From Agathobaculum sp. Marseille-P7918 (GTDB lineage Bacteria > Bacillota > Clostridia > Oscillospirales > Butyricicoccaceae), in contig NZ_UYYD01000001.1 of the NCBI RefSeq assembly GCF_900625105.1, positions 62,001-126,000 of the forward strand: 64,000 bases of DNA, in the 5' to 3' direction. Below the pieces are notes generated by a model. It did not search any database. It had not been told where the DNA came from and was given only the letters and a program-made list of their open reading frames with translations. Within the stretch, counting starts at the first letter, position 1, and each line of letters starts with the position of its first letter. The position numbers and the translations under genes were made by a program. Below are positions 33,624-56,805 of this stretch, piece after piece.

Positions 33624-33684
33624 GCTTAAAAGCTGATTGAACCAGGAAACAGTTAGCTGTAATAAAAGGAACGGAGAAGATGAA

Positions 33685-36600
33685 ATGAACAAATTATTCC
33701 GGCAGGGGCTTTCTGCGGTGCTTTCCGTTATGGTGCTTGGGCAGGCGCTGCCCGTGTCCTATGCGGCGGCATCCGATCAGGAGCAGGGTTCTGTGTCTAT
33801 CACAGAGCAGGCGTTCCCGGATCAGAAGTTCCGTCAGTGGCTGACGGATTCGTCAAATATCCATGGCTACGGTGCAGACGGCATTCTGACGACGGCAGAA
33901 CTGGCGGGGATTTCGGAAATCAATGTTTCAGGGATCGGAGTGCGCTCCTTGCAAGGCATTGAGTATTTTTCTGCACTCGAGCAGCTGGATTGCAAAAACA
34001 ATGCGCTGACGCAGTTGGATGTGCAAAACAACCGCTCGCTGAAATATCTGCATTGTGCGTTTAACAGCATTGTATCGCTGGATGTGTCCGGGCTCGATCA
34101 ATTGATTTCGCTCAATTGCGAGAGCAATCAGATGACTTCGCTGGATTTAACAGGCTGCACGGCTCTGGAAATCATCTACTGCCGCAATAACAATCTGCCG
34201 AAGGTGGATTTTTCCACCAATACCGCGCTCAAGTTTATCGAAACGTTTGATAATAAGCTCAAAGAGGTGGATCTGTCCAATCTGAAGCAGTTGGAGTTTG
34301 TCCATCTGGATCATAACCTGCTGACCCATCTGGATCTGAGCGCAAATACCAATCTCAGCCCGGTGGGCAGCGGCTTTGTCGCTCGCAACAATCAGCTGGA
34401 TACGCTGACGCTTCCGGTGAAAGCGACCTTGATTGTGGAGGATTCGGTTTACGCGGAGCAGGACCCGAAGAAGGGGTATGAACGGACCGAGTGGTATTTG
34501 GATAGCGCGTTCACGCAGCCGGCGCCTTCGGAAATTGTTGCCAACGGGCAGACGCTGTATGTCAAATGGCTGCCGAACGATTATACCATTTCCTTTTCCG
34601 GCAATGGCGGCAGCGGTTTGATGCCCGCAGTGCCCGCGGTGTGGGATGCGCCGGTGGAGCTGCCCAAGAGCACATTCAGCCGTGTTGGATATCGGTTTGC
34701 AGGTTGGGAAGATACGTTTGGCGATGGTGCGAAATACACCGATCAGCAGACCGTGACCAATCTGGCGGGTGAGATTCAGGGCGACCGCGTTACGCTGTAT
34801 GCGCAGTGGCAGCCGATCACCTATACGGTGGCGTTTGACGCCAACGGCGGGCAGGGTGAAATGCAACCCGAGACGCATACCTATGATCGGTCCAAAACCC
34901 TGTCGAGCAACACGATCCAGGCGCCGGCGGGCAAGGAATTTGCCGGATGGGCAAGACAGAAAAACGGTCCGGTTCTGTATGCGGACGGTGCTTCTGTGCG
35001 CAACCTGACGGCAACACAGGATGAAACCATTACACTGTATGCGATTTGGCGCGAGCCGATCGTCAACCAGTATCGGGATGCGTTGGATCAGGCATTCGCC
35101 GCCTACCAGGCGGATCAATACACCGAACAGGATTGGAGCCAATTGGCCGGGATCTATGATGAAGCGACCCGCAATCTTGCGGGAACTGCCGAAGAGTCGC
35201 AGATGCAGGATATTTTGGCAACTGCCAAAAATGAGATGGCAACGGTGCCGACTTTCGCCATGCGCGTGAAGCAGGCAGTTTCCGCGTGGGAAACCGCTTA
35301 CCGTACGGTGATTGCACAGGCATCCGGCGGCGCAGTGGACGAGGCAAACGCACAGGAGATCGGCGCTGCGGCACAGGCGGCAGCGGTTGGATTGACGACT
35401 GACTTTGTCGCGACAAATTCCGACCTGACGATCGCGGCGGATCGGGAACTGGTGACCGCACGCGCGCTGCAGGAAATTGAAACGACCGTGCAGGCGCTGC
35501 AAAAGCTGGCAGATGCGGCCGCTTGGGCGGGCGGTCTGGACGGGTTGTCCACGCGTGCGCTGTCGGAGGTTACTTCGCAGTGGCAGGCAAATTACGAGAC
35601 CGCATATCAGCAAGCCGGGGCCTATCAGGCGCAGCTCAGTGCCGGTCTGATGAACGCTTTGCAGATGCGTGCGTCGCTCGCGCTGCAAAAGCAGCAGGCG
35701 GTGACCCAGCTGCACATGGATTACAGCGGCTTGGATCGGGAACAGTACACCGAAGAAAATCTTCGCAAGCTGGACAGCATTTTCCAGTCCGGTACGGACG
35801 GAATCGAAGCGGCGGATTCGAACGGCGCAGTAGCTGCGCTGCTGGCGAAGGCGCAGGAGGAGCTGCGCGCGGTTCCGGACAAAAACCAAACGGAAAAGCC
35901 GGGCGGCGGGGAATCCGGTGAATCCGGGGAAGGCGGAGCTGGCGGCGGCGTTTCCGGAGGAGGAACCGCCGGTGGCGGCGGTGCTGCGGGCGGAGGTGCC
36001 GGCGGCGGTGGCACCGCGCCGGGACCGTCCGACCAGGTAAGCAGTGAACAGACGATTGCAGCAACGGTTACGGCAGATACTTCGGCAGGCACGGCGAAGG
36101 CGCAGCTGGATGCGGCAGAGGTCAAGAAAAAAGTGGATGCCGCACTTCAGGCAGCCCAAAAGGATCAGTCCGCGCCGGTCATCACGGTGACGATGGATTC
36201 CAACGCTGCGAAAACCGTATCGCTTTCCGTGCCGTCTCAGGCGCTGGGAGAACTTGCCAAAAATGCAAAAGCTGTGTTTTCCGTGCGGTGCGGACTCGGC
36301 AAGGTGACGCTGAACGCCAAGGCCATCCAGGCCGTTGTTCAGCAGGCAGGACAGGATGCGTTTGTTCTGACGATTGCCTCCGTGACCGAAGCGGGACAGA
36401 ACAACCGTCCGGGATATGATATTTCGATCCAGAGTGCCGGCAAGAAGATCACGGATCTGTCCGGCGGCACTGCTGTGGCAGCAGTACCGTACACGCTTGG
36501 GGTAGACCAGCAGGCCGGTGGTGTTATCGCTTATGCGGTGGCGGCAGATGGCGGACGAAGTGCGTGCAGCACGACGTATGATCGGAAAACGCAAACCGTT

Positions 36601-37212
36601 CAGTTTACGTTGCACCAGCTGTCCCAGGTCGAGATCGTTTACGACGAGACGGCGGCGTGGCAGGGCAGATTTGATGATGTCAAATCGACCGACTGGTACT
36701 ACGATGCCGTGCGGTATGTCTGTGCCCATGGCATCATGAACGGGCACTCGGCAACTGCATTTGGGCCGGAAGAAAATCTGTCCCGCGCGCAGTTGGCACA
36801 GGTGCTTTATAATATGGAAGGCCGTCCGGAAACCGTGCATGCGGAGTATTCCGATGTCACCCCGGGCGCGTGGTATGAAAATGCGATCAACTGGGCTGTG
36901 ACCAACCATATCCTGACCGGCTATGGAGACGGTCTGATGGGGCCGGACGACGCCGTGACGCGGGAGCAGCTGGCGGCCATGCTGTATCGGTATTCCGGCC
37001 TGAAGGGATACGGTACGGATAACCGTGCGGATCTCAGCGCTTTCGCCGACGCATCGCAGATCAGCGCGTATGCGCAGATTCCGATGCAGTGGGCAAATGC
37101 GGAGGGGATCGTAAACGGTACCAGCGCAACCGAGCTGACGCCGGGCGGTAATGCGACCCGTGCGCAGACGGCAGCTATGCTGATGCGCTTTGTGCAAAAG
37201 CAGGATCAATAA
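33685..37212 (+). CDS. Large modular surface protein: LRR, InlB B-repeats, FIVAR-like domains, SLH anchor
   Basis: The product has 1175 residues. After a signal peptide (about 1-30) comes a leucine-rich-repeat region of the internalin-like type (about 60-220; repeats such as LEQLDCKNNALTQLDVQNN). Three InlB/Listeria-Bacteroides repeats follow (about 230-460; GYRFAGWEDTF, VAFDANGGQGEMQPE). Two FIVAR-like helical modules (DQYTEQDWSQLAGIYDEA and REQYTEENLRKLDSIF) come next, then a Gly/Ser-rich linker near 750-790, a beta domain, and three C-terminal SLH repeats (FDDVKSTDWYYDAVRYV, YSDVTPGAWYENAINWA, third near the end). It is probably a wall-bound adhesin. ATG 33685 follows GGAGAAG. Confidence 0.88.
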   Translation: MNKLFRQGLSAVLSVMVLGQALPVSYAAASDQEQGSVSITEQAFPDQKFRQWLTDSSNIHGYGADGILTTAELAGISEINVSGIGVRSLQGIEYFSALEQLDCKNNALTQLDVQNNRSLKYLHCAFNSIVSLDVSGLDQLISLNCESNQMTSLDLTGCTALEIIYCRNNNLPKVDFSTNTALKFIETFDNKLKEVDLSNLKQLEFVHLDHNLLTHLDLSANTNLSPVGSGFVARNNQLDTLTLPVKATLIVEDSVYAEQDPKKGYERTEWYLDSAFTQPAPSEIVANGQTLYVKWLPNDYTISFSGNGGSGLMPAVPAVWDAPVELPKSTFSRVGYRFAGWEDTFGDGAKYTDQQTVTNLAGEIQGDRVTLYAQWQPITYTVAFDANGGQGEMQPETHTYDRSKTLSSNTIQAPAGKEFAGWARQKNGPVLYADGASVRNLTATQDETITLYAIWREPIVNQYRDALDQAFAAYQADQYTEQDWSQLAGIYDEATRNLAGTAEESQMQDILATAKNEMATVPTFAMRVKQAVSAWETAYRTVIAQASGGAVDEANAQEIGAAAQAAAVGLTTDFVATNSDLTIAADRELVTARALQEIETTVQALQKLADAAAWAGGLDGLSTRALSEVTSQWQANYETAYQQAGAYQAQLSAGLMNALQMRASLALQKQQAVTQLHMDYSGLDREQYTEENLRKLDSIFQSGTDGIEAADSNGAVAALLAKAQEELRAVPDKNQTEKPGGGESGESGEGGAGGGVSGGGTAGGGGAAGGGAGGGGTAPGPSDQVSSEQTIAATVTADTSAGTAKAQLDAAEVKKKVDAALQAAQKDQSAPVITVTMDSNAAKTVSLSVPSQALGELAKNAKAVFSVRCGLGKVTLNAKAIQAVVQQAGQDAFVLTIASVTEAGQNNRPGYDISIQSAGKKITDLSGGTAVAAVPYTLGVDQQAGGVIAYAVAADGGRSACSTTYDRKTQTVQFTLHQLSQVEIVYDETAAWQGRFDDVKSTDWYYDAVRYVCAHGIMNGHSATAFGPEENLSRAQLAQVLYNMEGRPETVHAEYSDVTPGAWYENAINWAVTNHILTGYGDGLMGPDDAVTREQLAAMLYRYSGLKGYGTDNRADLSAFADASQISAYAQIPMQWANAEGIVNGTSATELTPGGNATRAQTAAMLMRFVQKQDQ

Positions 37213-37218
37213 AGAAAC

Positions 37219-37257
37219 AGAAGGGCCGATGCAGCCAAATCGCTGCATCGGCTCTTC
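37219..37257. terminator. Terminator between surface protein and enoate reductase
   Basis: AGAAGGGCCGATGCAGC/GCTGCATCGGCTCTTCT inverted repeat between convergent genes; the flanking T and A tracts are short. Confidence 0.75.
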
Positions 37258-37296
37258 TGCTATTTTGGGAAGTGGTATCAGCTGGTTTCAAGACAA

Positions 37297-39225
37297 TCAG
37301 ATCTGTAATGCGGCATCCAGCGCGTCGCCGGTGGCGTGAACCGCGTTGCCGGGCGCTTTGGCGGCTTCGCCAATGACCAGAACCTGCGGCGCAATGCGTT
37401 CCGCGGTTTCTTTGAGTGCGGCATTGGAGCGCGAGCCCATTGCCAGCACGACGTTGTCGTATCCGCGCATCGAACCGACGGTGCCGTCTGCCAGCGTATA
37501 ATCTACGCCGTCCGGATAGAAATGACCGACCCTAGCGCCGGCGCGAAGCGTAACATGATGCCGCTCGAACGTGTCAAACATAACACGGCGGTTTTCCGGC
37601 ATGACGTCCGCGGCAATGACGTCCTTCATCTCAATGATGCCGACTTCATGTCCGCGTTCGGCCAGATATTCCGCAGCTTCACAACCGACCATGCCGCCGC
37701 CGACGACCAGCACACGCTTGCCGACGGCAGCCTTGCCGACCAGCATATCCTGTGCCGTGACAAAGCCGCAGTCCTGCAATCCGGGGATCGGCAGAATGAG
37801 CGGGGTAGAGCCGGTGGCCAGAATGATGGCATCCGGCTGCAAAGCACGCAGCAGTTCCTCGTCGGCTTCCGTGCTCGTGCGGATGTCCACGCCGGCTTTT
37901 TGTGCGCGGACGATCATAGCACGGATGGGTTCGGACAACTGTCCCTTGCCGGTCGGGAAGGAGGCAACACGGAAGTTGCCGCCGAGTTCGCTGTCCTTTT
38001 CCAGCAGCGTGACCCGATGACCGCGAACCGCACAGGCCCAGGCAGCATACAGACCGCCGGGGCCGCCGCCGATGACAACAACCTGCTTATGCTGCGCGGC
38101 GGGTTTGAGATCGGCTTCACGGCCTACGCACGGATTGACGGCGCAGGTGATGGGTTTGCCTGCGAACATGTTCGGCACACAGCCGAGCAGACAGCCGATG
38201 CAGGGACACAGTTCTTCCAACTGGCCGTTTCGGGCCTTGTTCGGCAGTTCCGGATCGGCAATGCTTTGACGGCCAAAGGCGATCAAGTCGGCGCGGCCCT
38301 GTTTGACCAGCAATTCCGCGTACTGTGGTTCCGTGAAGCGACCGACGGCAATGACAGGCACGGAAACCGCCCGCTTGATTTCGGATACCAGATCGGCGTT
38401 GAATCCGCCGTGGGTCACGCCGGGCGCCCACATGAATTCGTCGTGCAGGTGCACCGCGCGGGTGACGTGGATGGCGTCCACGCCGCATTCCTGTTCCAGA
38501 TAGGCGGCAACGGCTGCGGCGTCCTGGACGCTTTGGCCGCCTTCGACTTCGTCGCTGGCGTTGATGCGGCACAGGATGGGCAGATTCCCGCCGGTTTTGT
38601 GGCGGATATTTTCAATAATCAGACGCGGCAGGCGCATTCTGTTCTCAAAGCAGCCGCCGAATTCGTCCGTGCGGTGATTGGTGCGCTGGGAAATAAACGT
38701 GCTGACCAGATAGCCGTGCGCGCAGTGCACTTCGACCATGTCGATGCCGGCCTGCTGTGCCCGGCGTGCGGCGTCGCCGTAACATTCAATGATGCGGTAG
38801 AGCTCTTCGTTGGAAACAGCCTCGGGAATCTCGCGACCCTGCGCGGCAGGGACTGCGCTGGCGGCTTTGAGCGGATAACCGGTCAGTGCCGAGTTTCCTT
38901 CCGGACCGGCGTGCTGCAGCTGAATGGATACCTTGGCGCCATACGCGTGGCAGGCGTCGGCAACCTGACGGAAGCTCTCTACGGTGTCGTCGGAAAACAG
39001 GCAGGGTTTGCGCGGTCCGCCCTTGGCCTCCTGATATACGACGGTCGATTCAATGGTGATCAGGCCAAAACCGCCTTTGGCGCGTGCCGCATAGTAGTCC
39101 CGCGAGCGGTCGCTCAGGCTGCCGTCGGTGTTGGCAAAGTTGTTGCCCATGGGCGGCACGACAAAGCGGTTGGGAACCGTTACTGTGCCGATCTGGATGG
39201 GGGAAAACATGGTGGGAAATTTCAT
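37297..39225 (-). CDS. Old-Yellow-Enzyme-type enoate reductase (NADH:flavin oxidoreductase / 2,4-dienoyl-CoA reductase family)
   Basis: The 642-residue, three-domain enzyme has an N-terminal FMN TIM barrel (PNRFVVPPMGNNFAN; active-site stretch EVHCAHGYLVSTFIS). The [4Fe-4S] motif CPCIGCLLGCVPN...TC follows near residue 340, then C-terminal FAD/NAD domains (VVIGGGPGGLYAAW near 385 and VLVVGGGMVGCEAAEYLAE near 520). The family hydrogenates C=C bonds conjugated to a carbonyl. It is the last gene of the shikimate-type operon, which suggests a cyclic enone such as 3-dehydroshikimate as substrate (inference). AGGAGCG precedes ATG 39225. Confidence 0.9.
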   Translation of the reverse strand: MKFPTMFSPIQIGTVTVPNRFVVPPMGNNFANTDGSLSDRSRDYYAARAKGGFGLITIESTVVYQEAKGGPRKPCLFSDDTVESFRQVADACHAYGAKVSIQLQHAGPEGNSALTGYPLKAASAVPAAQGREIPEAVSNEELYRIIECYGDAARRAQQAGIDMVEVHCAHGYLVSTFISQRTNHRTDEFGGCFENRMRLPRLIIENIRHKTGGNLPILCRINASDEVEGGQSVQDAAAVAAYLEQECGVDAIHVTRAVHLHDEFMWAPGVTHGGFNADLVSEIKRAVSVPVIAVGRFTEPQYAELLVKQGRADLIAFGRQSIADPELPNKARNGQLEELCPCIGCLLGCVPNMFAGKPITCAVNPCVGREADLKPAAQHKQVVVIGGGPGGLYAAWACAVRGHRVTLLEKDSELGGNFRVASFPTGKGQLSEPIRAMIVRAQKAGVDIRTSTEADEELLRALQPDAIILATGSTPLILPIPGLQDCGFVTAQDMLVGKAAVGKRVLVVGGGMVGCEAAEYLAERGHEVGIIEMKDVIAADVMPENRRVMFDTFERHHVTLRAGARVGHFYPDGVDYTLADGTVGSMRGYDNVVLAMGSRSNAALKETAERIAPQVLVIGEAAKAPGNAVHATGDALDAALQI

Positions 39226-39249
39226 ATCTTAACGCTCCTGTTCGGTCTG

Positions 39250-40122
39250 TCAGGAAAAGAACTTTTCCAGAACTTCCTGCGCGGGCATATCCTTGCCGGT
39301 AAACAGCTTAAACGCTGCAACGCCCTGCCACAACAGCATGCCGATGCCGCCAACCGCTGCCTTGCAGCCTGCTGCTTCGGCTTGCTGGATCATGCGGGTC
39401 TCCCGCGGATTATATACGGTATCCGCCACTACCAGATCGGAGCGGAGCAGGGAAGCGGGAACGAGAGTCTGGTCATCCAGAGGCTTCATGCCGACCTTGG
39501 TGGCGTTGACAAGAATGTTGCAGCCGCGTACAGCGTCGGCCAGTGCGTCCGCGTCTTCCAGCGGCGTGATCGTAGCCTTGCAGCCGGGCACGGCCTGCGC
39601 CAGCTTTTCGACGGTCCGCTCGCCGTTGGCATAGAATTCATCGCGGCGGTTGAAGATCGCGATCTCCGCTGCGCCGTCCAGCGCCGCCTGTACGCAGATC
39701 GCCGTCGCGGCGCCGCCTGCGCCGAGCACGACCAGTTTCTGGCCCTTTACTTCCACGCCATTTTCATGCAGGTTTTGGACAAAACCGATGCCGTCGGTGT
39801 TATGACCGGTCAGCTTGCCGTCTTCGCTTACCGTGACGGTATTGCATGCGCCGATCAGACGGGCGGCAGGCGACAGCTCATCCACGATGCCAGCCACCGC
39901 GGTTTTGTCCGGCATGGTGACGTTAAAACCGCCGACATGGAGTGTTTTCAGGGCGGCAACGCCCTCTTCTACCTGCTCCAGCGGAATTTCAAAGGCGAGA
40001 TATGCGGCGTCCACGCCGGTGCGCTCAAAACTGTAATTGTACATCGCGGGCGAGCCGGAATGACCGACCGGGGAACCGATCAGGCAATAGAGTCTGGTAT
40101 GACCGGAAATTCTGTTTTCCAT
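39250..40122 (-). CDS. aroE: Quinate/shikimate dehydrogenase (AroE/YdiB family), copy 1
   Basis: The 290-residue enzyme oxidises or reduces C3 of shikimate or quinate with NAD(P). The substrate-binding motif HSGSPAMYN, the catalytic Lys in NVTMPDK, Asp in NTDGIGF and the glycine-rich GAGGAAT are present. After the second strand it has FNRRDEF, the sequence found in E. coli YdiB that allows NAD as well as NADP, unlike the NRT motif of biosynthetic AroE. Lying in a catabolic-looking operon supports a YdiB-like role. The start is ATG 40122, behind AGGAGGATT. Confidence 0.9.
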   Translation of the reverse strand: MENRISGHTRLYCLIGSPVGHSGSPAMYNYSFERTGVDAAYLAFEIPLEQVEEGVAALKTLHVGGFNVTMPDKTAVAGIVDELSPAARLIGACNTVTVSEDGKLTGHNTDGIGFVQNLHENGVEVKGQKLVVLGAGGAATAICVQAALDGAAEIAIFNRRDEFYANGERTVEKLAQAVPGCKATITPLEDADALADAVRGCNILVNATKVGMKPLDDQTLVPASLLRSDLVVADTVYNPRETRMIQQAEAAGCKAAVGGIGMLLWQGVAAFKLFTGKDMPAQEVLEKFFS

Positions 40123-40147
40123 AAGTAAATCCTCCTATTTTTTCTGA

Positions 40148-40993
40148 TTATGCTTGCAATACTTCGGGCCAAACCTGTTCCAGAAGGGTTTTGGTCGCGT
40201 CAAAGTTTTCCTTGGCAGCTTGGGCAACGCCATGGCTCAGGATTTCGTCGCTGATGACTTCCACGCCGACAACGGCGGGCTCGATGCCCTTGTCGTGGAT
40301 CATCTTGACAAAGCCTGCGGTGTCGCCGTAACCCGTGCCGGGGAGCATGCGGTCATGCATGGATTCGTCGCGGAGAATGCTCTTGGCATAGGGATGCGCC
40401 TGTACGTCGTTGATCTGGATGGAGACGATCTTGTCTGCCGGGATATCAGCCAGCACGGAAAGATCGCAGGGCTGACCGGCGCGGATGTAGTGCCAGGAAT
40501 CCAGGATCAGCTTGGCATTGTCGCAGCCGGAAGCTTTGACCACGGCCCAAGCCTTTTTCACATCGGGCAGGCCGCTGTACGGCATCGGCTCGACGCCGAT
40601 CGTGTATTTGCCTGCGCGGTGGCACAGCTCTTTGAGCTTCTGCGCCGTGTATTCTACCGAGTAGTCTTCCATCAGACCGCAGTTGATGTGGTGGACGCCG
40701 AACAGCTCGCACATGTGGAAGCATATCTGCTCCTTGTATTTCTGCTCGTAGGAACGGTGCTCTTCCGCCCACTGTACGATGTATTCCACTTCGGTGACCT
40801 GCATGTCGTACTTTTTCAGGATCGCCAGCAGATCGGCGTCAAAAAGGCCTTCGTTCAGGGCATCGACATAGGTTTCCGCGCGGAGGCCGATGCCTTCAAA
40901 GCCGGCGGCTTTGGCAGCTGCCACACGTTCTTCAAAGGTGCATTGATCGCCGAGCGTCCAGGAACTGATGGTAATGGGATACTTGTGAGACAT
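40148..40993 (-). CDS. TIM-barrel sugar-phosphate isomerase/epimerase family protein (possible 3-dehydroshikimate dehydratase)
   Basis: The 281-residue protein has the AP-endonuclease-2/xylose-isomerase-like fold. Candidate metal ligands are Glu in TIGVEPMP, Asp and His in LILDSWHY and Glu in VVGVEVIS. The family contains inosose dehydratases and the AsbF/QuiC-type 3-dehydroshikimate dehydratases. Its place between two shikimate-pathway genes favours a C7 cyclic polyol acid substrate, but sequence alone does not settle dehydratase versus isomerase. ATG 40993 has AGGAGG at the right distance; an upstream in-frame ATG at 41017 is less likely. Confidence 0.8.
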   Translation of the reverse strand: MSHKYPITISSWTLGDQCTFEERVAAAKAAGFEGIGLRAETYVDALNEGLFDADLLAILKKYDMQVTEVEYIVQWAEEHRSYEQKYKEQICFHMCELFGVHHINCGLMEDYSVEYTAQKLKELCHRAGKYTIGVEPMPYSGLPDVKKAWAVVKASGCDNAKLILDSWHYIRAGQPCDLSVLADIPADKIVSIQINDVQAHPYAKSILRDESMHDRMLPGTGYGDTAGFVKMIHDKGIEPAVVGVEVISDEILSHGVAQAAKENFDATKTLLEQVWPEVLQA

Positions 40994-41019
40994 GGATGAT
41001 TTCCTCCTGTGATCCAAAA

Positions 41020-41544
41020 TTATTTTGTGGTTGTCTCGGTCTGCGCAGCCAGCTTGATGATTTCCCGGCAGACTTCCTCGATCGTTCGATCCGAGGTATC
41101 TACGGTGATATCGGCTGCGGCCTCATATTTCGGTCTGCGTTGTTCCATGAGCGCAGAAATATAAGGAACGTCTTTGTGTCCTTCCAGCAGAGGGCGGCTG
41201 TGGTCATGTTCGACCCGCCCAAGAATCACTTCCGGGCGCGCGGTGAGCAGCACAATGGTGCCGCAGCGGCGCATGGCCGCAACATTTTCTTCGCGCATGG
41301 GCACGCCGCCGCCGCAGGAGACGATGCGCGGCGCGCCGGCGGTGAAGCTTTCCAGCAGCGCAGTTTCACAGGCCCGGAAGTACGGCTCGCCTTTTTGGGC
41401 GAAGATCTCCTGAATGGACATGCCTTCTTTTTGTGCGATGCACGCATCCATTTCGATGACTTCCCGGTGCAGCAGCTGGTGCAGGCGGTGGGAGACGGAA
41501 GACTTGCCGGCCCCCATAAATCCAATCAAAAACACATTGTTCAT
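41020..41544 (-). CDS. aroK: Shikimate kinase
   Basis: The 174-residue enzyme phosphorylates shikimate at O3 with ATP. Walker A is GFMGAGKSS. The shikimate-binding residues expected for AroK can be seen: Asp in EMDACI, Arg in YFRACE, the CGGGVP triple glycine, and Arg in the lid RPLLEG. All key residues are intact, so it should be active. It starts 3 bases after the MFS gene stop, with GAGGGAT overlapping that stop. Being inside a regulated transport and dehydrogenase operon suggests it feeds imported shikimate into aromatic biosynthesis. Confidence 0.92.
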   Translation of the reverse strand: MNNVFLIGFMGAGKSSVSHRLHQLLHREVIEMDACIAQKEGMSIQEIFAQKGEPYFRACETALLESFTAGAPRIVSCGGGVPMREENVAAMRRCGTIVLLTARPEVILGRVEHDHSRPLLEGHKDVPYISALMEQRRPKYEAAADITVDTSDRTIEEVCREIIKLAAQTETTTK

Positions 41545-41547
41545 TTG

Positions 41548-42762
41548 TTATCCCTCGGTTTCCACCGCTGCCCGCTCGCGCTTGAGACAGGCGTTAAGAT
41601 AGAGTGCCAGAATGATGCCGATCAGCGTAATGACCATGTTGAACAGCAGCACCAGACGCGGGCCTTCGGTGCCGCTGACTTTGGTCAGTACACCGGCGAT
41701 GCTGATGACGATGTAGTTGGCCAGACTGGAAGAGATCATCACGATCGAGGTGATAACGCCGCGGTTTTTGGGGAACATTTCATTTGCTACCGCGGTCACC
41801 AGCTGCAATACGCCACCTGCGGCAAAGAAGCCCAGCAAAAAGCCGCCGATCAGACACATCACAGGCTGCTGGATGAAATAGATCGCGCCCAACGTGATTA
41901 ATGCAATCGTGGGGTAGGTGACAAGGATCTTTGCCGGCTGCACGTTTCTGCGCAGCAAGGCTGCGCTGACAAACAGCGCCAGTACAATGCCGACCGAGTA
42001 GAAGGACTGGATTTTGCTGGGATCTGCAAGACCGTACAGCGTGCCCAGTTCCTGATTGCAGTTCATCCAAAGCATGAAGGTGGTCGAAGTGGTAAAGCCC
42101 AGGCAGACCAGCACGATGGCGGCGGGGGAGAAGTGCATTTTTTCTTTCTTTTTCTCGCCTTTCACCGTGCGCTCAAAGGGCGGGAACGGAAGAAACGCAA
42201 GGAAGATTCCATCGACCACGATGATGACGGCCGTCGCCAGAAAGATCGTGTTGAACGGCAGATTGCGAACGGCAACAAAGCCGATGGCAAACGGCAGCAA
42301 AAACTGTGCGATCGAAATGGACAGTTTGGTGAATATATTGGCGATGGTGCCTTTTTCCTTAAAGATTTCCATGCAGGAGGGGGTGATGCTGGTATCCAGA
42401 AAGGAATTGGCCATACCGCTGATGACGGCCAGCACATAGCCGACATACAGATTGGGCGAGAACGTGACTGCCAGCAGAAAAATGGCATAGAGCGTGCAGC
42501 CGATCAAGGCGGAGAGCCGACGCCCCAGTCGGTCGCTGAGCGGGCCGGCGATCGGAAACGCCAACAGGCGGCCAAGACCAATGGCGGCGATGACGGCGAC
42601 CACGCTGGAAACATCATAGCTGCCGTCGGAAAGGGTGGCAGCGCCCCACAGAGCGGCAAAGTTCTGTTTGTATTGTCCCATGATGGTGGAGGCAACACCG
42701 AGGACAAAATAGGTGATATACAGCGCCAGCGCCGTTGGATAGTATCGTTTGGATTCGTTCAT
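41548..42762 (-). CDS. MFS transporter, probable shikimate/quinate importer
   Basis: The 404-residue protein has twelve predicted membrane segments in two halves separated by a basic loop (VKGEKKKEKMH). The MFS motif A GPLSDRLGRRLSA follows TM2. The family fixes it as a secondary transporter. The substrate is inferred only from the operon, where shikimate or quinate is the shared theme. ATG 42762 has AAAGGAAC upstream and it is the second gene of the operon. Confidence 0.85.
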   Translation of the reverse strand: MNESKRYYPTALALYITYFVLGVASTIMGQYKQNFAALWGAATLSDGSYDVSSVVAVIAAIGLGRLLAFPIAGPLSDRLGRRLSALIGCTLYAIFLLAVTFSPNLYVGYVLAVISGMANSFLDTSITPSCMEIFKEKGTIANIFTKLSISIAQFLLPFAIGFVAVRNLPFNTIFLATAVIIVVDGIFLAFLPFPPFERTVKGEKKKEKMHFSPAAIVLVCLGFTTSTTFMLWMNCNQELGTLYGLADPSKIQSFYSVGIVLALFVSAALLRRNVQPAKILVTYPTIALITLGAIYFIQQPVMCLIGGFLLGFFAAGGVLQLVTAVANEMFPKNRGVITSIVMISSSLANYIVISIAGVLTKVSGTEGPRLVLLFNMVITLIGIILALYLNACLKRERAAVETEG

Positions 42763-42783
42763 ATGCAGTTCCTTTCTGTTTGT

Positions 42784-43647
42784 TTATCGATAAAGCAATT
42801 GCCGGATTTGTTCGACAGGCATTTCCAGACCGCTGTAAAGCCGGAAAGCAGCAGCGCCCTGACACAGCAGCATGCCCAGACCGTCACAGGTGCGGCAGCC
42901 GGCGGCTTTGGCTTCGCGCAGCATTTTGGTCTCTTCGGGAGAGTAGACTACATCGGTTACGACGAGGTCGGGGCGGAACCAGGAAAGGTCGGTGATGTTG
43001 CTCTGCTCCTCATAAGGCGCCATGCCAACCCGAGTGGCGTTGGAGAGAATGTCGCAGCGATCGATGGCGGCTTTGAGTTCGTTGCGGTCGCTCAGGTCGT
43101 GCAGAGAGAGCTTGCAGCCGGGTGCCGCCTGAGAGATGGATTTCAGCCCATTGCTGACCCGCTCCCAGAATGCGTCTCTCAGGTTGAACACCGCGATTTC
43201 AGCGGCGCCTTCCAGCGCGGCCTGAATGGCAATCGCGGAAGCTGCGCCGCCGCCGCCAAGCAATACGATTTTCTTGCCCGCGACGTCCACGCCGTTTCGG
43301 CGCAGATTCTGTGTGTAGCCACAGCCGTCAGTGTTGTGGCCGATCAGCCGTCCGTTTTCATTGAGGATGGTGTTGACGGCTTGGATGGCTTTTGCTGCCG
43401 GGGAAAGCTCGTCCAAAAAGGGGATGACCGCATTTTTGCAGGGCATCGTCACATTGGCGCCCCGCATGTGCAGGGTGCGGATCGCGGCAACCGCCTTGCC
43501 GGCGTCCTCTGCCGGAACGTCAAAGGCGAGGTATGCCCAGTTCAAATCGAATTTGTCAAAACAATAGTTATACATGGCTGGAGATTTGGAATGCGCCACC
43601 GGCGTTCCAATCAGTCCAAGCATTTGGGTTGTTCCCGAAATGTGCAT
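42784..43647 (-). CDS. aroE: Quinate/shikimate dehydrogenase (AroE/YdiB family), copy 2
   Basis: The 287-residue protein is clearly paralogous to the copy at 39250 but well diverged. It has HSKSPAMYN, catalytic Lys in NVTMPCK, NTDGCGY and the cofactor loop GGGGAAS. The cofactor-selecting loop reads FNLRDAF rather than FNRRDEF, so coenzyme preference or substrate may differ. It is the first gene of the six-gene operon, with GAAGGAG before ATG 43647, and faces the LysR regulator across about 150 bases. Confidence 0.9.
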   Translation of the reverse strand: MHISGTTQMLGLIGTPVAHSKSPAMYNYCFDKFDLNWAYLAFDVPAEDAGKAVAAIRTLHMRGANVTMPCKNAVIPFLDELSPAAKAIQAVNTILNENGRLIGHNTDGCGYTQNLRRNGVDVAGKKIVLLGGGGAASAIAIQAALEGAAEIAVFNLRDAFWERVSNGLKSISQAAPGCKLSLHDLSDRNELKAAIDRCDILSNATRVGMAPYEEQSNITDLSWFRPDLVVTDVVYSPEETKMLREAKAAGCRTCDGLGMLLCQGAAAFRLYSGLEMPVEQIRQLLYR

Positions 43648-43710
43648 GATTGCACAGCTCCTTCTGCCGCAAATACGGCGTTTCTGTTTCGCGACTCCTA
43701 TCTTAGCTTA

Positions 43711-43728
43711 TTGTTAGAAAAATAACAA
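43711..43728. promoter_or_regulatory. Dyad 1 in the LysR/operon divergent region
   Basis: TTGTTA-N6-TAACAA. On the minus strand the left-hand TTGTTA could also serve as -35 for a TAAGAT box 17 bases on, the likely operon promoter. Confidence 0.5.
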
Positions 43729-43748
43729 ATCAATTGTTCTCATAAAAC

Positions 43749-43765
43749 GATAGATTTTATCTATC
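43749..43765. promoter_or_regulatory. Dyad 2, LysR-type T-N11-A operator
   Basis: GATAGAT-TTT-ATCTATC, a perfect 7-base-arm repeat containing T-N11-A, immediately upstream of the regulator gene. Typical LysR recognition sites look like this. Confidence 0.6.
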
Positions 43766-43798
43766 AAATGTGGTATGGTAAAAATGGAGGTGGACGCC

Positions 43799-44680
43799 TT
43801 GAATTTGTTCCATTTACGATACTTTGTGCAATTGGCGCATACGAAGCATTACACACAAACAGCAAAACAGTTATGTATTACGCAGCCCAGCCTCAGCCAT
43901 GCGATCGCGCAGTTGGAGGCGGAGTTGGGTGTGCCGCTGTTTGAAAAAACAGGGCGGAATACGGTTCTGACCCACTTCGGTGAGGAATTCCTGATTTGTG
44001 CGGAAAATACCCTGTCCACGTTGGATGAAGGGGTGGAAGCCATGCGGCGCAATGCGCGCGGAGAGGGGCTCATTCGTCTTGGCCTGCTGCGCACGCTGGG
44101 GGTCGAATATGTTCCGCGCCTCGCCGCCGGTTTTTTGAAAGCAAATCCCGGAAAGGATATTCGTTTCACCTTTCAAACCGGTGTAACACAGGAGTTGTTG
44201 GAAAAACTGTCCGCGAGACATTTCGATCTGGTTTTCTGCTCAAAACCGCCTGCGGAAATGGAGTTTACGGCAATTCCGGTCGATAAGCAGGATTTGGTTT
44301 TGATCGTTCCGCGCAATCATCCGTTGGCGGGGCGGCATTCGGTGGATTTGGAAGAGACCTTGCCTTATGAGCAAGTTTATTTTTCCAAGGAATCTGGTTT
44401 GCGGAACGTCGTGGATGGGCTGTATGCGCAGATCGGCGGGACGCCGCGGATCGCCTATGAAACGGAGGAGGATCAGGTGATTGCCGGACTGGTGGCGCAG
44501 GGCTTTGGCATCGCGGTTGTGCCGTATATGGAGATTTTGCTGCGGCTGGACGTGAAGATTATTCAGATCAGTCATCCTGCTTGGGAGCGGAATTTTTATG
44601 TGGTCAGTAATGACAAGGCGTTCCAGTCGCCGGCGGTTCGGCAATTTCGACAGTATATTTTGGATGGCGGCGAATTGTGA
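43799..44680 (+). CDS. LysR-family regulator of the shikimate/quinate operon
   Basis: The 293-residue protein has an N-terminal winged helix-turn-helix (HYTQTAKQLCITQPSLSHAI) and a periplasmic-binding-like effector domain from about residue 88. It is divergent from the six-gene operon, so it most likely activates it on binding shikimate or a relative. I place the start at TTG 43799, because GGAGGTGG lies 6 bases upstream and the HTH then begins at the usual distance; GTG/ATG codons from 43775 are alternatives. Confidence 0.88.
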   Translation: MNLFHLRYFVQLAHTKHYTQTAKQLCITQPSLSHAIAQLEAELGVPLFEKTGRNTVLTHFGEEFLICAENTLSTLDEGVEAMRRNARGEGLIRLGLLRTLGVEYVPRLAAGFLKANPGKDIRFTFQTGVTQELLEKLSARHFDLVFCSKPPAEMEFTAIPVDKQDLVLIVPRNHPLAGRHSVDLEETLPYEQVYFSKESGLRNVVDGLYAQIGGTPRIAYETEEDQVIAGLVAQGFGIAVVPYMEILLRLDVKIIQISHPAWERNFYVVSNDKAFQSPAVRQFRQYILDGGEL

Positions 44681-44766
44681 GTCTTTACCAATAATAAAGA
44701 TCGTTTTTTTACCCCATAGATAGAATCGATCGTTTGATAAACAGAATACATTGTGCAGTGATGTAT

Positions 44767-44803
44767 AAAAAAACAGACTTGCAGTTTGCAAGTCTGTTTT
44801 TTC
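44767..44803. terminator. Bidirectional terminator between lysR and zupT
   Basis: AAACAGACTTGCA/TGCAAGTCTGTTT stem with A and T runs on the two sides. Confidence 0.9.
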
Positions 44804-44813
44804 ATCCAATGCT

Positions 44814-45617
44814 TTACAAAAATAGCAGCAGGCTGACAGCCATGACAGCCATCCCGGAAATCAGTCCGTAGATGGACAGGTGATGCTCTCCATATTCCCG
44901 CGCGGCAGGCAGCAGTTCATCGAAAGAGATGAACACCATGATACCGGCTACGCCTGCAAAGAGAATGCCGAATACCGTTGGATTCATGATTGGACGGAGC
45001 AGCAGCCATCCCAGCAGCGCGCCGACCGGTTCGGACAGTCCGGAAAGAAAGGAATACCCGAACGCGCGATATCGGGAACCGGTGGCCTGATAGATCGGCA
45101 CGGAGACCGCAATGCCTTCCGGAATGTTGTGAATCGCAATGGCGACCACAATAGGAATCGCCACGCTGGGCTCTTGCAGGGCGGATACAAAGGTGGCAAG
45201 TCCCTCCGGGAAATTATGAATTGCGATGGCCAGCGCCGTGAACAGACCCATGCGCATCAGGCGATTCGGATGCGGCATGTCGCTGCTTGTTTGCTCCATG
45301 GATTTGACTTCGTGGGGATTTTCCTCCGATGGGATTAATCGGTCGATCAGAGCGATCAGTAGCATGCCGCCGAAAAAGGAGATAACGGTGACCCAGTTGC
45401 CGAGTCGGTCCCCCAACTGGGGAAGCAGATATTCCCGTGCCTTGGAGAAAATCTCGATCATGGATACATAAATCATGACGCCTGCGGAAAATCCAAGCGC
45501 AACCGAAAGAAATTTTCGGTTGGTTTGCCGGCAGAGGAAGGCAATGCAGCTGCCGATTCCCGTGCTGAGTCCTGCGAGCAGCGTCAGGGAGAACGCAAGA
45601 AAAAGTGATTGATTCAA
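44814..45617 (-). CDS. zupT: ZIP-family metal transporter (ZupT)
   Basis: The 267-residue protein has about eight transmembrane segments. The ZIP metal-site helices read AIAIHNFPEGLATF and AIAIHNIPEGIAV. ZupT proteins import divalent cations, chiefly Zn, also Fe, Mn and Co. A His-poor cytoplasmic loop (EENPHEVKSMEQTS) links helices 3 and 4. Translation starts at TTG 45617 behind AGGAGG. A strong promoter and an 18-base dyad lie upstream, which suggests metal-dependent control. Confidence 0.92.
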   Translation of the reverse strand: MNQSLFLAFSLTLLAGLSTGIGSCIAFLCRQTNRKFLSVALGFSAGVMIYVSMIEIFSKAREYLLPQLGDRLGNWVTVISFFGGMLLIALIDRLIPSEENPHEVKSMEQTSSDMPHPNRLMRMGLFTALAIAIHNFPEGLATFVSALQEPSVAIPIVVAIAIHNIPEGIAVSVPIYQATGSRYRAFGYSFLSGLSEPVGALLGWLLLRPIMNPTVFGILFAGVAGIMVFISFDELLPAAREYGEHHLSIYGLISGMAVMAVSLLLFL

Positions 45618-54273: not shown

Positions 54274-55251
54274 TCAGTCTGCCCAGTGGGCATTTTTAAA
54301 GATTGCTCGGCCCACGCCGATGAGGTCGGCACAGCCCTCCAGCAGGAGGGTTTCGGCCTGTGCTGGGGTGGTGACCCCTCCTGTCAGAAGAACAGGGAGA
54401 CAGACAGCCTGCTTTACGGGAACAGACAGATCCCGGAAATACCCGGGTTCGGTGTGTCCGGGTCGAATGAAGCCGTGCATGCCGCCGGTGAGATGAATCA
54501 GATCGATGCCGCTGTGCTCCAGCAGCCGACAAGCCTCCACACAGTCCAGAGCGGTACTTCCTCCCTCTGCATAGTCACAGCCGCCCAGCCGCAGGGCAAT
54601 GGGAAAGTCATCCCCCACAGTCTGTCGAACTGCCTGAATGACTTCCCGATGGAAGCGGATGCGGTTTTCCACTGACTGAGGACCGTACGCATCGGTTCTC
54701 TGGTTGGCCAGCGGGGAGAAAAACTGATTGAGGAGATAGCCGTGGGCGGAGTGGATCTCCACGCCGTCAAAGCCAGCCTGTTTTGCCCGAACGGCAGCCT
54801 GCGCAAACCATTCGGTTACCTGCCGGATCTGTGCAAGCGTCATCTCCGCAGGCGGTTCTTCCTGCTGCTTGGGGTGGCAGATCGGGCTGGGGCCTACGGG
54901 CGGCTGCCCAGTGATCTTGGACAGCGCCGCCGACCCCGCGTGGCTGAGCTGCGCAAAGACTTTGACACCCTCCCGGTGGATGCAGTCGGTCAGCTGCCGA
55001 AAAGAGGGGATCACATCATCCGAGGCCAGCGAGGTTTGGCCTGGATGGGCCTTGCCTTGCAGATGAATATAGCTGTGTTCGGTGATGATCAGGCCGATTT
55101 TGCTGTATTTTGCGCGTTCGCGGTAGTAGTCGCATACCGCATCTGTCACATGGCCGTTTTCGTCCGCCTTTGCGGTGGCCATGGGAGGCATCACCAGACG
55201 GTTGGACAGGGTCAGGTTCCGGATGGTAATGGGATCGGAAATATGAGTCAT
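54274..55251 (-). CDS. Short Old-Yellow-Enzyme-type NADH:flavin oxidoreductase
   Basis: The 325-residue single FMN TIM barrel is without the Fe-S and FAD domains of the long form at 37297. It has NRLVMPPMATAKADENG at the N-terminus, VFAQLSHAGSAALS, and the active-site EIHSAHGYLLNQFFSP. YqjM-like members reduce activated alkenes, nitro compounds or electrophiles. ATG 55251 lies 8 bases after GGAGG; the frame further upstream overlaps the MATE gene. It follows the MATE gene closely in the same direction. Confidence 0.87.
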   Translation of the reverse strand: MTHISDPITIRNLTLSNRLVMPPMATAKADENGHVTDAVCDYYRERAKYSKIGLIITEHSYIHLQGKAHPGQTSLASDDVIPSFRQLTDCIHREGVKVFAQLSHAGSAALSKITGQPPVGPSPICHPKQQEEPPAEMTLAQIRQVTEWFAQAAVRAKQAGFDGVEIHSAHGYLLNQFFSPLANQRTDAYGPQSVENRIRFHREVIQAVRQTVGDDFPIALRLGGCDYAEGGSTALDCVEACRLLEHSGIDLIHLTGGMHGFIRPGHTEPGYFRDLSVPVKQAVCLPVLLTGGVTTPAQAETLLLEGCADLIGVGRAIFKNAHWAD

Positions 55252-55274
55252 AACAATATCCTCCATAGAAAACT

Positions 55275-56648
55275 TTATGTTTGGGATTGGCCACAGCGTC
55301 CGGTTTTTCTCCATTCCGCAAAGCCAAAGGCCAGTGCCAACACAAAGGCGCAGGCGTCGCCTACCGGTCCGGCCCACAGGGCACCTTCCACCCCAAAAAA
55401 GCGGGGCAGGATCAACAGAGCCGGCAGCAAAAAGAGCACTTGACGGGATAGAGAGATCAAAGTGGCCTGTATCGGCTTTCCGATTGCCTGAAAAAAGGTG
55501 CCTGTGCACAGCTGAAATCCGTTCAAGAGGATGAGCAGCAGAAAGATCTTCAGGCTCTTGACTGCAAATTCTCGATACAGCTCGGACTCTGAGCCAAAAA
55601 TACTGACGATCGAGTCGGGGAACAACTGAAACAACAGCGTACCTGCACCCATGACGATCGTGGAAAAGATGATCGCCAACAAGTAGGTTTTCTGCGCCCG
55701 TGCTGTCTTTCCGGCACCATAATTGTATCCAATGATGGGTTGGGAGCCAACAGAAATTCCGATGACAATGCCGGTGATAATCTGGTTGACCTTCATGGTA
55801 ATGCCCAGCGTGGTCATGGGGATTTCAGCGCCATACTTGGAGGCTGCGCCGTATTTGACCAGCACATTGTTCATTACAGTGATCACAATGGTGGCCGCCA
55901 GCTGAAGAAAGAAACTGGAAATGCCAAGGCTGCATACCTTGCCGCACAACTTCCATCGGAGGAGCAAACAGTCAGGGGTCAGGGTGATGCACCGGAATTT
56001 TCTCAGATAAAGCAGGGTCATGATGCAGGAAACGATCTGCCCCAGAACCGTGGCTATGGCAGCTCCCTTTACCCCCATGTGGAAAACAAAAATAAAAACT
56101 GGGTCCAGAATGGTATTCAAAATCGCGCCGCTCAGTGTCGCCAGCATGGCATAGACCGGGCTCCCGTCCGCACGCATAATGGAGTTAAATCCCATGCTGA
56201 ACATATAAAAGGGAAAGCCCAATACAATGATGTACCCATACTCCAGAGAGTAGGACATGGTGGCGTCTGTGGCGCCAAACAGAACGCAGAGGGGTTTCAG
56301 AAAGAGCAGAGACAGGGCGGTCAACAGAATGCTGACTATCACCGTCAGGGTAATGGCATTGCCTACGCCCTGTGCGGCTCTCTGACGGTTTTCCTGCCCC
56401 AAGCACAGACTGAAATAGGCTGTGGTACCGTCTCCGATCATCAGGCCAAGCGCCAGGGCAATTACGGTCAGGGGCAGGATTACATTGGTTGCACCGTTTC
56501 CCAAATAGCCGACACCGCGGCCTATGAAAATCTGATCGACGATATTATACAGGGTACTGACTACCATGGAAATAATGCTGGGCACGGCGAAGGTGCCAAG
56601 CAGCTTTCCGACCGGCTCATACCCAAGGGGATTGGTTTGCGCCTGCAT
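55275..56648 (-). CDS. MATE-family multidrug efflux transporter
   Basis: The 457-residue transporter has twelve membrane helices. The N-terminal LLGTFAVPSIISMVVSTLYNI and GATNVILPLTVIALALGLMIGDG belong to the NorM/MepA-type MATE family. These pumps extrude cationic compounds using Na or H. ATG 56648 follows GGAGGAAG; the longer frame to 56762 would run through its promoter. The gene is driven by a MerR-type promoter and is followed by the ene-reductase. Confidence 0.9.
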   Translation of the reverse strand: MQAQTNPLGYEPVGKLLGTFAVPSIISMVVSTLYNIVDQIFIGRGVGYLGNGATNVILPLTVIALALGLMIGDGTTAYFSLCLGQENRQRAAQGVGNAITLTVIVSILLTALSLLFLKPLCVLFGATDATMSYSLEYGYIIVLGFPFYMFSMGFNSIMRADGSPVYAMLATLSGAILNTILDPVFIFVFHMGVKGAAIATVLGQIVSCIMTLLYLRKFRCITLTPDCLLLRWKLCGKVCSLGISSFFLQLAATIVITVMNNVLVKYGAASKYGAEIPMTTLGITMKVNQIITGIVIGISVGSQPIIGYNYGAGKTARAQKTYLLAIIFSTIVMGAGTLLFQLFPDSIVSIFGSESELYREFAVKSLKIFLLLILLNGFQLCTGTFFQAIGKPIQATLISLSRQVLFLLPALLILPRFFGVEGALWAGPVGDACAFVLALAFGFAEWRKTGRCGQSQT

Positions 56649-56703
56649 GGTTTTTCTTCCTCCATTTTGGTTTTGATTGGGCGGGAAATCCCCGCAATAT
56701 GCA

Positions 56704-56734
56704 ATCATAAACCTTACTATAATAGGAAAGTCAA
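56704..56734 (-). promoter_or_regulatory. MerR-type promoter of the MATE/ene-reductase operon
   Basis: On the minus strand TTGACT and TATGAT are 19 bases apart, with the dyad CCTATTATAGTAAGG between them. An over-long spacer with a central dyad is the hallmark of MerR-activated promoters. Confidence 0.75.
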
Positions 56735-56805
56735 GGGGATTTTTTGAGTAAAAATTATTCAAAGAAAGAGGGCGCGGGGAGAAATGCTCCCAGCGCCCTT
56801 TGGGG

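Follow-up and report, generated by a model that had tools for sequence, protein, structure and literature searches.

A 64,000-nucleotide stretch of the genome of Agathobaculum sp. Marseille-P7918 (contig NZ_UYYD01000001.1, positions 62,001–126,000; hereafter the window) carries a run of six genes lying head to tail on the minus strand at window positions 37297–43647, with a gene for a LysR-type regulator divergent on the plus strand. The operon is real, conserved and regulated. From its gene families it is tentatively read as serving the reductive use of shikimate or quinate, with 3-dehydroshikimate as the basis of an electron sink, a reading that we place slightly below an even chance. Such a sink, put forward in an original prediction made from the sequence, is plausible and partly supported: the conserved cluster, an enone-type reductase and substitute reductase-type genes in 16 Bacilli loci speak for it, while the role of the TIM-barrel protein and the end product do not.

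In order of transcription, the operon encodes dehydrogenase 1 of the YdiB/AroE family (42784–43647, 287 amino acids, PF08501); a transporter of the major facilitator superfamily (MFS), presumed to import shikimate or quinate (41548–42762, 404 amino acids, PF07690); a second shikimate kinase (41020–41544, 174 amino acids, PF01202 with an E-value of 6.9e-43); a xylose-isomerase-like TIM barrel (40148–40993, PF01261); dehydrogenase 2, a shikimate dehydrogenase paralogue (39250–40122, 290 amino acids, PF08501); and a long Old Yellow Enzyme (OYE)/enoate reductase (37297–39225, 642 amino acids), which has an FMN barrel (PF00724), an FAD/NAD domain (PF07992) and presumed Fe-S cysteines. The intergenic gaps are 21, 3, 26, 25 and 24 bases in the same order. 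For the TIM barrel an ATG start gives 281 amino acids, and a TTG upstream would give 289. The LysR gene (43775–44680, plus strand) has the HTH_1 and LysR_substrate domains. The open reading frame coordinates and domain matches thus agree with the six head-to-tail genes, gaps of 3 to 26 bases, opposing LysR gene and family names first described.

The grouping of these genes was examined in 80 loci, taken from a contig collection with the TIM-barrel profile alone (the best 80 of 125 relatives, picked by two peptide patterns). These loci are related to each other and not independent, and L011–L013, which came from a class-level scan, are excluded from all counts out of 80. Neighbours were scored within 5.5 kb of the TIM barrel, at identities of at least 40% on the same strand for the dehydrogenase, at least 50% for the reductase and at least 24% for the MFS protein; because many loci stop short at a contig end or at the limit of the 9 kb flank, the numbers given for absent genes are maxima. 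An AroE/YdiB dehydrogenase on the same strand was found in 76 of the 80 loci, a divergent LysR gene in 71, an MFS-family gene in 69 and a closely related enoate reductase in 60, with all six window families together in 8. A shikimate kinase was found in 17 loci and not in the remaining 63, and the type I dehydroquinase AroD occurs on the same strand in 15. Since the neighbourhood is conserved around a gene that was the only basis of selection, chance grouping is very unlikely and accidental clustering was rejected; this was the co-occurrence search proposed with the original prediction. Variants of the arrangement were also seen. An Eggerthellaceae locus (L069:9001–10903) has tandem TIM barrels, 71% and 28% identical to that of the window, ahead of the reductase; an ABM-domain protein, of a family present in six loci, lies between TIM barrel and dehydrogenase at L025:9856–10149; and at L012:1489–2566 a deletion or an assembly fault has left a shortened MFS frame running straight into a shortened TIM-barrel frame, the kinase being missing from its usual place.

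3-Dehydroshikimate is an enone that dehydrates to protocatechuate, and OYEs reduce enones. In the proposed pathway, the LysR protein would bind shikimate and activate transcription from a conserved palindrome, the MFS protein would bring in shikimate or quinate, and dehydrogenase 1, to judge from its family, would convert shikimate to 3-dehydroshikimate. The enoate reductase would then saturate the C=C of this compound with NADH, and dehydrogenase 2 would reduce the resulting ketone. The TIM barrel, by resemblance a metal-dependent dehydratase, may dehydrate 3-dehydroshikimate as a side exit to protocatechuate, or it may instead dehydrate the saturated ketone, which after further reduction would give 3,4-dihydroxycyclohexanecarboxylate. 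A net two to four electrons would be disposed of per shikimate, and the kinase would send part of the shikimate to chorismate. This reductive reading is favoured because a fermenter needs sinks for NADH, because the reductase is conserved and partly replaced, and because no match to the UbiD decarboxylase was found in the genome (a control matched in 9 of 14 genomes; the search took in no other decarboxylase and no ring-cleavage enzyme).

The reductase carries H167, H170 and Y172, which match His-x-x-His-x-Tyr, taken here to be the OYE active-site motif, and these residues are invariant, together with cysteines 342, 345, 349 and 361, in 58 of 58 operon-linked reductases aligned, the window included (the conservation set held 57 linked reductases and 83 TIM barrels with the window, and drew on L011–L013 too). 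The predicted enone-type reductase is borne out by these residues. A further 15 long OYEs encoded in these loci also keep the H/H/Y residues and the four cysteines, apart from one with Q at position 170; these are 15 of 25, four near-duplicates (L024, L026, L048 and L086) and six fusions being omitted. K68, K73, R256, H259, D262, E263, W266, H272 and R296 are common to the operon-linked clade and mostly missing in the 15 others, so that the clade may have its own substrate pocket, in which the basic residues could hold a carboxylate. The protein scores 252.8 bits against PF00724 and matches FadH (1ps9) with an E-value of 3.5e-80. Its top NCBIfam families are BaiCD (NF041087, 489.5 bits against a cut-off of 825), mycofactocin OYE 2 (478.9 against 793.15) and the long bilirubin reductase (475.7 against 750), all of them below cut-off. 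BaiCD acts on a 3-oxo enone. The domain layout of the window reductase is thus that of BaiCD, the bilirubin reductase and FadH, from which it differs in falling short of the curated cut-offs (825 and 750 bits), in its operon context and in the residues particular to its clade. In loci L023–L026, a more distant OYE lies on the far side of the LysR gene.

Among the 80 loci, the reductase (60) and a short-chain dehydrogenase/reductase (SDR) of approximately 280 residues (16) are mutually exclusive, no locus having both. The SDR occupies the slot of the reductase, directly following the TIM barrel among the labelled genes of all 16 SDR loci, and all 16 are from Bacilli. Ten of these 16 have a fumarate-reductase-like FMN_bind/FAD flavoprotein, fused to an OYE domain in six; in L072 and L073 all that is seen is a segment resembling the OYE portion of the fusion, truncated where the locus ends. 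An FAD-type reductase was not found in any of the 80 loci other than the SDR ones. A C=C-reducing flavoenzyme thus seems, by domain content, to return in another form in the Bacilli loci. The fusion of OYE, FMN_bind and fumarate-reductase-like FAD domains, approximately 970 residues long, is seen near the TIM-barrel operon in Gemella and Streptococcus (L079:5020–7929, also L075–L078 and L082). The flavoprotein of the lactobacillus locus L093 resembles urocanate and fumarate reductases.

Both dehydrogenases have as their closest structure the YdiB-type 3tnl, which we take to be Lmo0490. Against NF009200 (cut-off 432 bits), dehydrogenase 2 scores over the cut-off at 438.8 and dehydrogenase 1 just under it at 429.5. 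Dehydrogenase 1 has a TMPCK motif and dehydrogenase 2 a TMPDK motif; an SMPNK motif, also present in 3tnl and YdiB, was found in 29 of 112 dehydrogenases of named loci, 21 of these 29 lying within 2.3 kb of AroD. A midpoint-rooted tree places dehydrogenase 1 in clade A with the AroD-linked group and dehydrogenase 2 in clade B; support for its deep split is weak (0.43 and 0.56). Clade B, with TMPCK, TMPDK and related motifs, has 68 dehydrogenases, of which none adjoins AroD and 54 adjoin both TIM barrel and reductase. The proposal of one oxidising and one reducing dehydrogenase therefore fares well in that the two are of different kinds, and less well in that the deep split of the tree is weakly supported and that in 56 of the 80 loci the 5.5 kb range holds one dehydrogenase or none.

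For the LysR protein, the best solved relative is Listeria Lmo0488 (5ted; 146 bits, E-value 1.3e-41, the next scoring 104 bits), presumably the shikimate-responsive regulator QuiR, and the QuiR-like regulator first proposed is upheld by this match. The spacer between the LysR gene and the operon contains the palindrome ATAGATTTTATCTAT at 43750–43764, an operator candidate of the T-N11-A type with the core ATAGA-N5-TCTAT. The motif was picked from the window, which was then excluded from the test. With at most one mismatch, the core recurs in 52 of 68 relatives' spacers (those of the 80 loci that were usable) where 100 sets shuffled by moving dinucleotide blocks average 2.03 such spacers; the mismatches number none in 8 spacers, one in 44, two in 15 and three in one. 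Across the genome there is a single copy of the full 12-base palindrome. If one mismatch is allowed, the window has three copies of the 10-base core where 0.61 would be expected, which makes this looser form on its own non-specific. The window's spacer also has another palindrome, TTGTTA-N6-TAACAA, at 43711–43728. Taken together, the operon is apparently switched on by a shikimate sensor.

The TIM barrel is closest, both by sequence and by Foldseek, to Lmo2234 and then to the 3-dehydroshikimate dehydratase QuiC, and is 53% identical to Lmo2234 in a structural alignment that was a second look at Foldseek's own matches. E135, D165, Q193 and E245, which we take to be metal ligands, align with QuiC, as do H213 and R215, and the four form an E/D/Q/E site as in QuiC that is kept in at least 95% of the 83 TIM barrels. 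The curated QuiC model NF042435, which covers the whole two-domain protein in 635 positions, gave 42 bits for the TIM barrel, below its cut-off of 1200. By sequence, fold and neighbourhood alike, the window has a Lmo2234-type dehydratase adjoining a shikimate dehydrogenase, as in the Listeria qui operons, and the protein is likely a 3-dehydroshikimate-type dehydratase. The original prediction gave it no role and ended in a dihydroshikimate-like product, which is unsupported as written: since the nearest functionally characterised relatives of the TIM barrel include a dehydratase, the pathway could end in something other than dihydroshikimate, protocatechuate being one possibility.

A number of observations weigh against the electron sink. 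The dehydratase that the TIM barrel resembles produces protocatechuate, and the relatives in Listeria reportedly turn shikimate into this compound. Long OYEs such as BaiCD can also run as dehydrogenases. Exactly one dehydrogenase lies within 5.5 kb in 52 of the 80 loci and none in 4, so that two are not essential to the cluster. Four of the 16 SDR loci (L066, L068, L071 and L092) show no flavin reductase in the available DNA, and a further four loci (L023–L026, titled Anaerotignum except for L025, a Clostridia bacterium) have neither reductase nor SDR. Finally, the swap of reductase for SDR coincides with one division of the taxonomy and so could have happened just once.

Several of these points suit an aromatising, qui-type operon, which we consider rather unlikely and yet a serious rival and the best of the alternatives. 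Here shikimate or quinate would be oxidised to 3-dehydroshikimate, from which the TIM barrel would make protocatechuate for export or for use by neighbours, and the reductase would be an accessory or would clear a by-product. The resemblance to Lmo2234 and QuiC, the six aligned residues and the 15 loci with AroD nearby are consistent with this. QuiC2 is named as a class of dehydroshikimate dehydratase in Listeria in the title of a paper (Xue 2020, in the reference list of PMC9324987), a title that does not establish QuiC2 as Lmo2234. Against aromatisation, it would give no ATP, would yield NADH and would be of little use to a fermenter, and it leaves the reductase of 60 loci without a task. 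Decarboxylation of protocatechuate by UbiD was rejected for want of a match in the genome, which likewise counts against aromatisation so far as this one decarboxylase goes, and among the 24 families present in at least six loci none was recognised by eye as a protocatechuate-use family.

The fullest form of the reductive pathway, a four-electron anaerobic reduction of shikimate in gut Clostridia and Negativicutes, is a shade less probable still. In it, once shikimate has been oxidised to 3-dehydroshikimate, the OYE would saturate C1=C2, the TIM barrel would take the C5 hydroxyl off the saturated ketone, and the dehydrogenases, with the reductase, would convert the diketone or enone so formed to 3,4-dihydroxycyclohexanecarboxylate. 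Lactobacillus plantarum is said to reduce quinate and shikimate to saturated acids, including dihydroxycyclohexanecarboxylate, in work by Whiting and Coggins in the 1970s; a dehydratase that took the saturated ketone as its substrate would lead to the same dihydroxy acid.

The shikimate genes of the operon form a second, dedicated set, since elsewhere in the genome (2.83 Mb in 36 contigs) one more shikimate dehydrogenase domain and one more shikimate kinase domain form a separate AroE-AroK single open frame on contig C13; this counts in support of the original prediction. A type II dehydroquinase (PF01220) is present elsewhere in the genome, and the type I enzyme (AroD, PF01487) was not found in it. 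The separate frame, and the 63 loci without a kinase nearby, led us to reject ordinary aromatic biosynthesis as the main role. They likewise make it improbable that the operon scavenges imported shikimate or quinate for chorismate and aromatic amino acids by way of the kinase, the remaining genes adjusting the pool; the second kinase in the operon and the kinases of 17 loci fit such scavenging, for which the dehydratase and reductase would be superfluous. In Blautia hansenii (L081:8196–8996), the TIM barrel has beside it what looks by eye like a fusion of a shikimate kinase with a chorismate mutase domain. Equally doubtful is a different substrate, some other hydroaromatic or cyclitol-like acid handled by a sugar-type isomerase instead of a dehydratase, as the two shikimate dehydrogenases, the shikimate kinase, the AroD lying nearby in relatives and the Lmo0488-like regulator all indicate shikimate or quinate.

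The carriers among the 80 loci include Oscillospiraceae, Blautia, Dorea, Anaerobutyricum, Anaerostipes, Megasphaera, Streptococcus, Gemella and lactobacilli, as well as Clostridium ljungdahlii, C. carboxidivorans and C. magnum. The nearest six (L014–L019), with TIM barrels 86–89% identical to that of the window, are titled Oscillospiraceae, Oscillibacter or Clostridia, and two are from isolates labelled Chicken. Of 391 genomes of the window's class, 4 gave a match to the TIM-barrel protein, the window's included; of 394 genomes of the order 1 did, which is the window's own, and of 10 listed genomes of the same genus none did. Vertical inheritance within the order is therefore unsupported, and from this patchy presence the operon was probably transferred. 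The operon has a G+C content of 0.58, against 0.52–0.53 in the adjoining DNA.

A bidirectional terminator-like stem at 37218–37259 closes the operon; with 18 pairs, 11 of them G-C, it is the longest among 21 terminator-like sites in 37000–44900. Convergent with the operon at 33637–37212 is a gene for a large surface-type protein, by eye leucine-rich and InlB-like with C-terminal SLH-like repeats. A second, short OYE (54274–55254, 326 amino acids) adjoins a MATE-type transporter gene (55275–56762), also judged by eye, and is apparently unrelated to the operon. Near the operons of 21 loci (L089:6826–8217 and 20 others) there is a protein of approximately 460 residues, like a membrane transporter by eye, with no Pfam or NCBIfam match at an E-value of 0.001. 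It is perhaps an undescribed carrier of quinate or shikimate; it gave no match in the window's genome in a search without a positive control.

Of the known systems, the operon is closest to the qui operons of Listeria monocytogenes, with which it shares a Lmo0488-type LysR protein, a Lmo2234-type TIM barrel and 3tnl-like YdiB-type dehydrogenases. It appears to differ in being a single operon with a shikimate kinase and with two dehydrogenases that read TMPCK and TMPDK, where 3tnl reads SMPNK. The Listeria qui loci include the type I dehydroquinase AroD, by which quinate enters, and because this enzyme was not found in the window's genome the operon is not a qui operon proper. The QuiA described in PMC11325843 is a different, membrane-bound protein.

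In the reported Lactobacillus plantarum reduction, as in the pathway proposed here, shikimate or quinate takes up electrons under anaerobic conditions, and other lactobacilli (L087, L091–L093) carry a related cluster with an SDR instead of the long OYE, three of the four with a fumarate-reductase-like flavoprotein. The reductive chemistry would thus not be new, but the genes might be: in a literature search that is a weak guide to subscription journals, no gene set was recognised for the first steps of shikimate or quinate reduction. If the four-electron form of the pathway is true, the operon would fill a gap in the bacterial genes that lead from quinate in the diet towards cyclohexanecarboxylate and urinary hippurate. 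A compact, regulated cluster in many named gut groups (Blautia, Dorea, Anaerobutyricum, Anaerostipes, Megasphaera and Oscillospiraceae) would make the first reductive steps testable.

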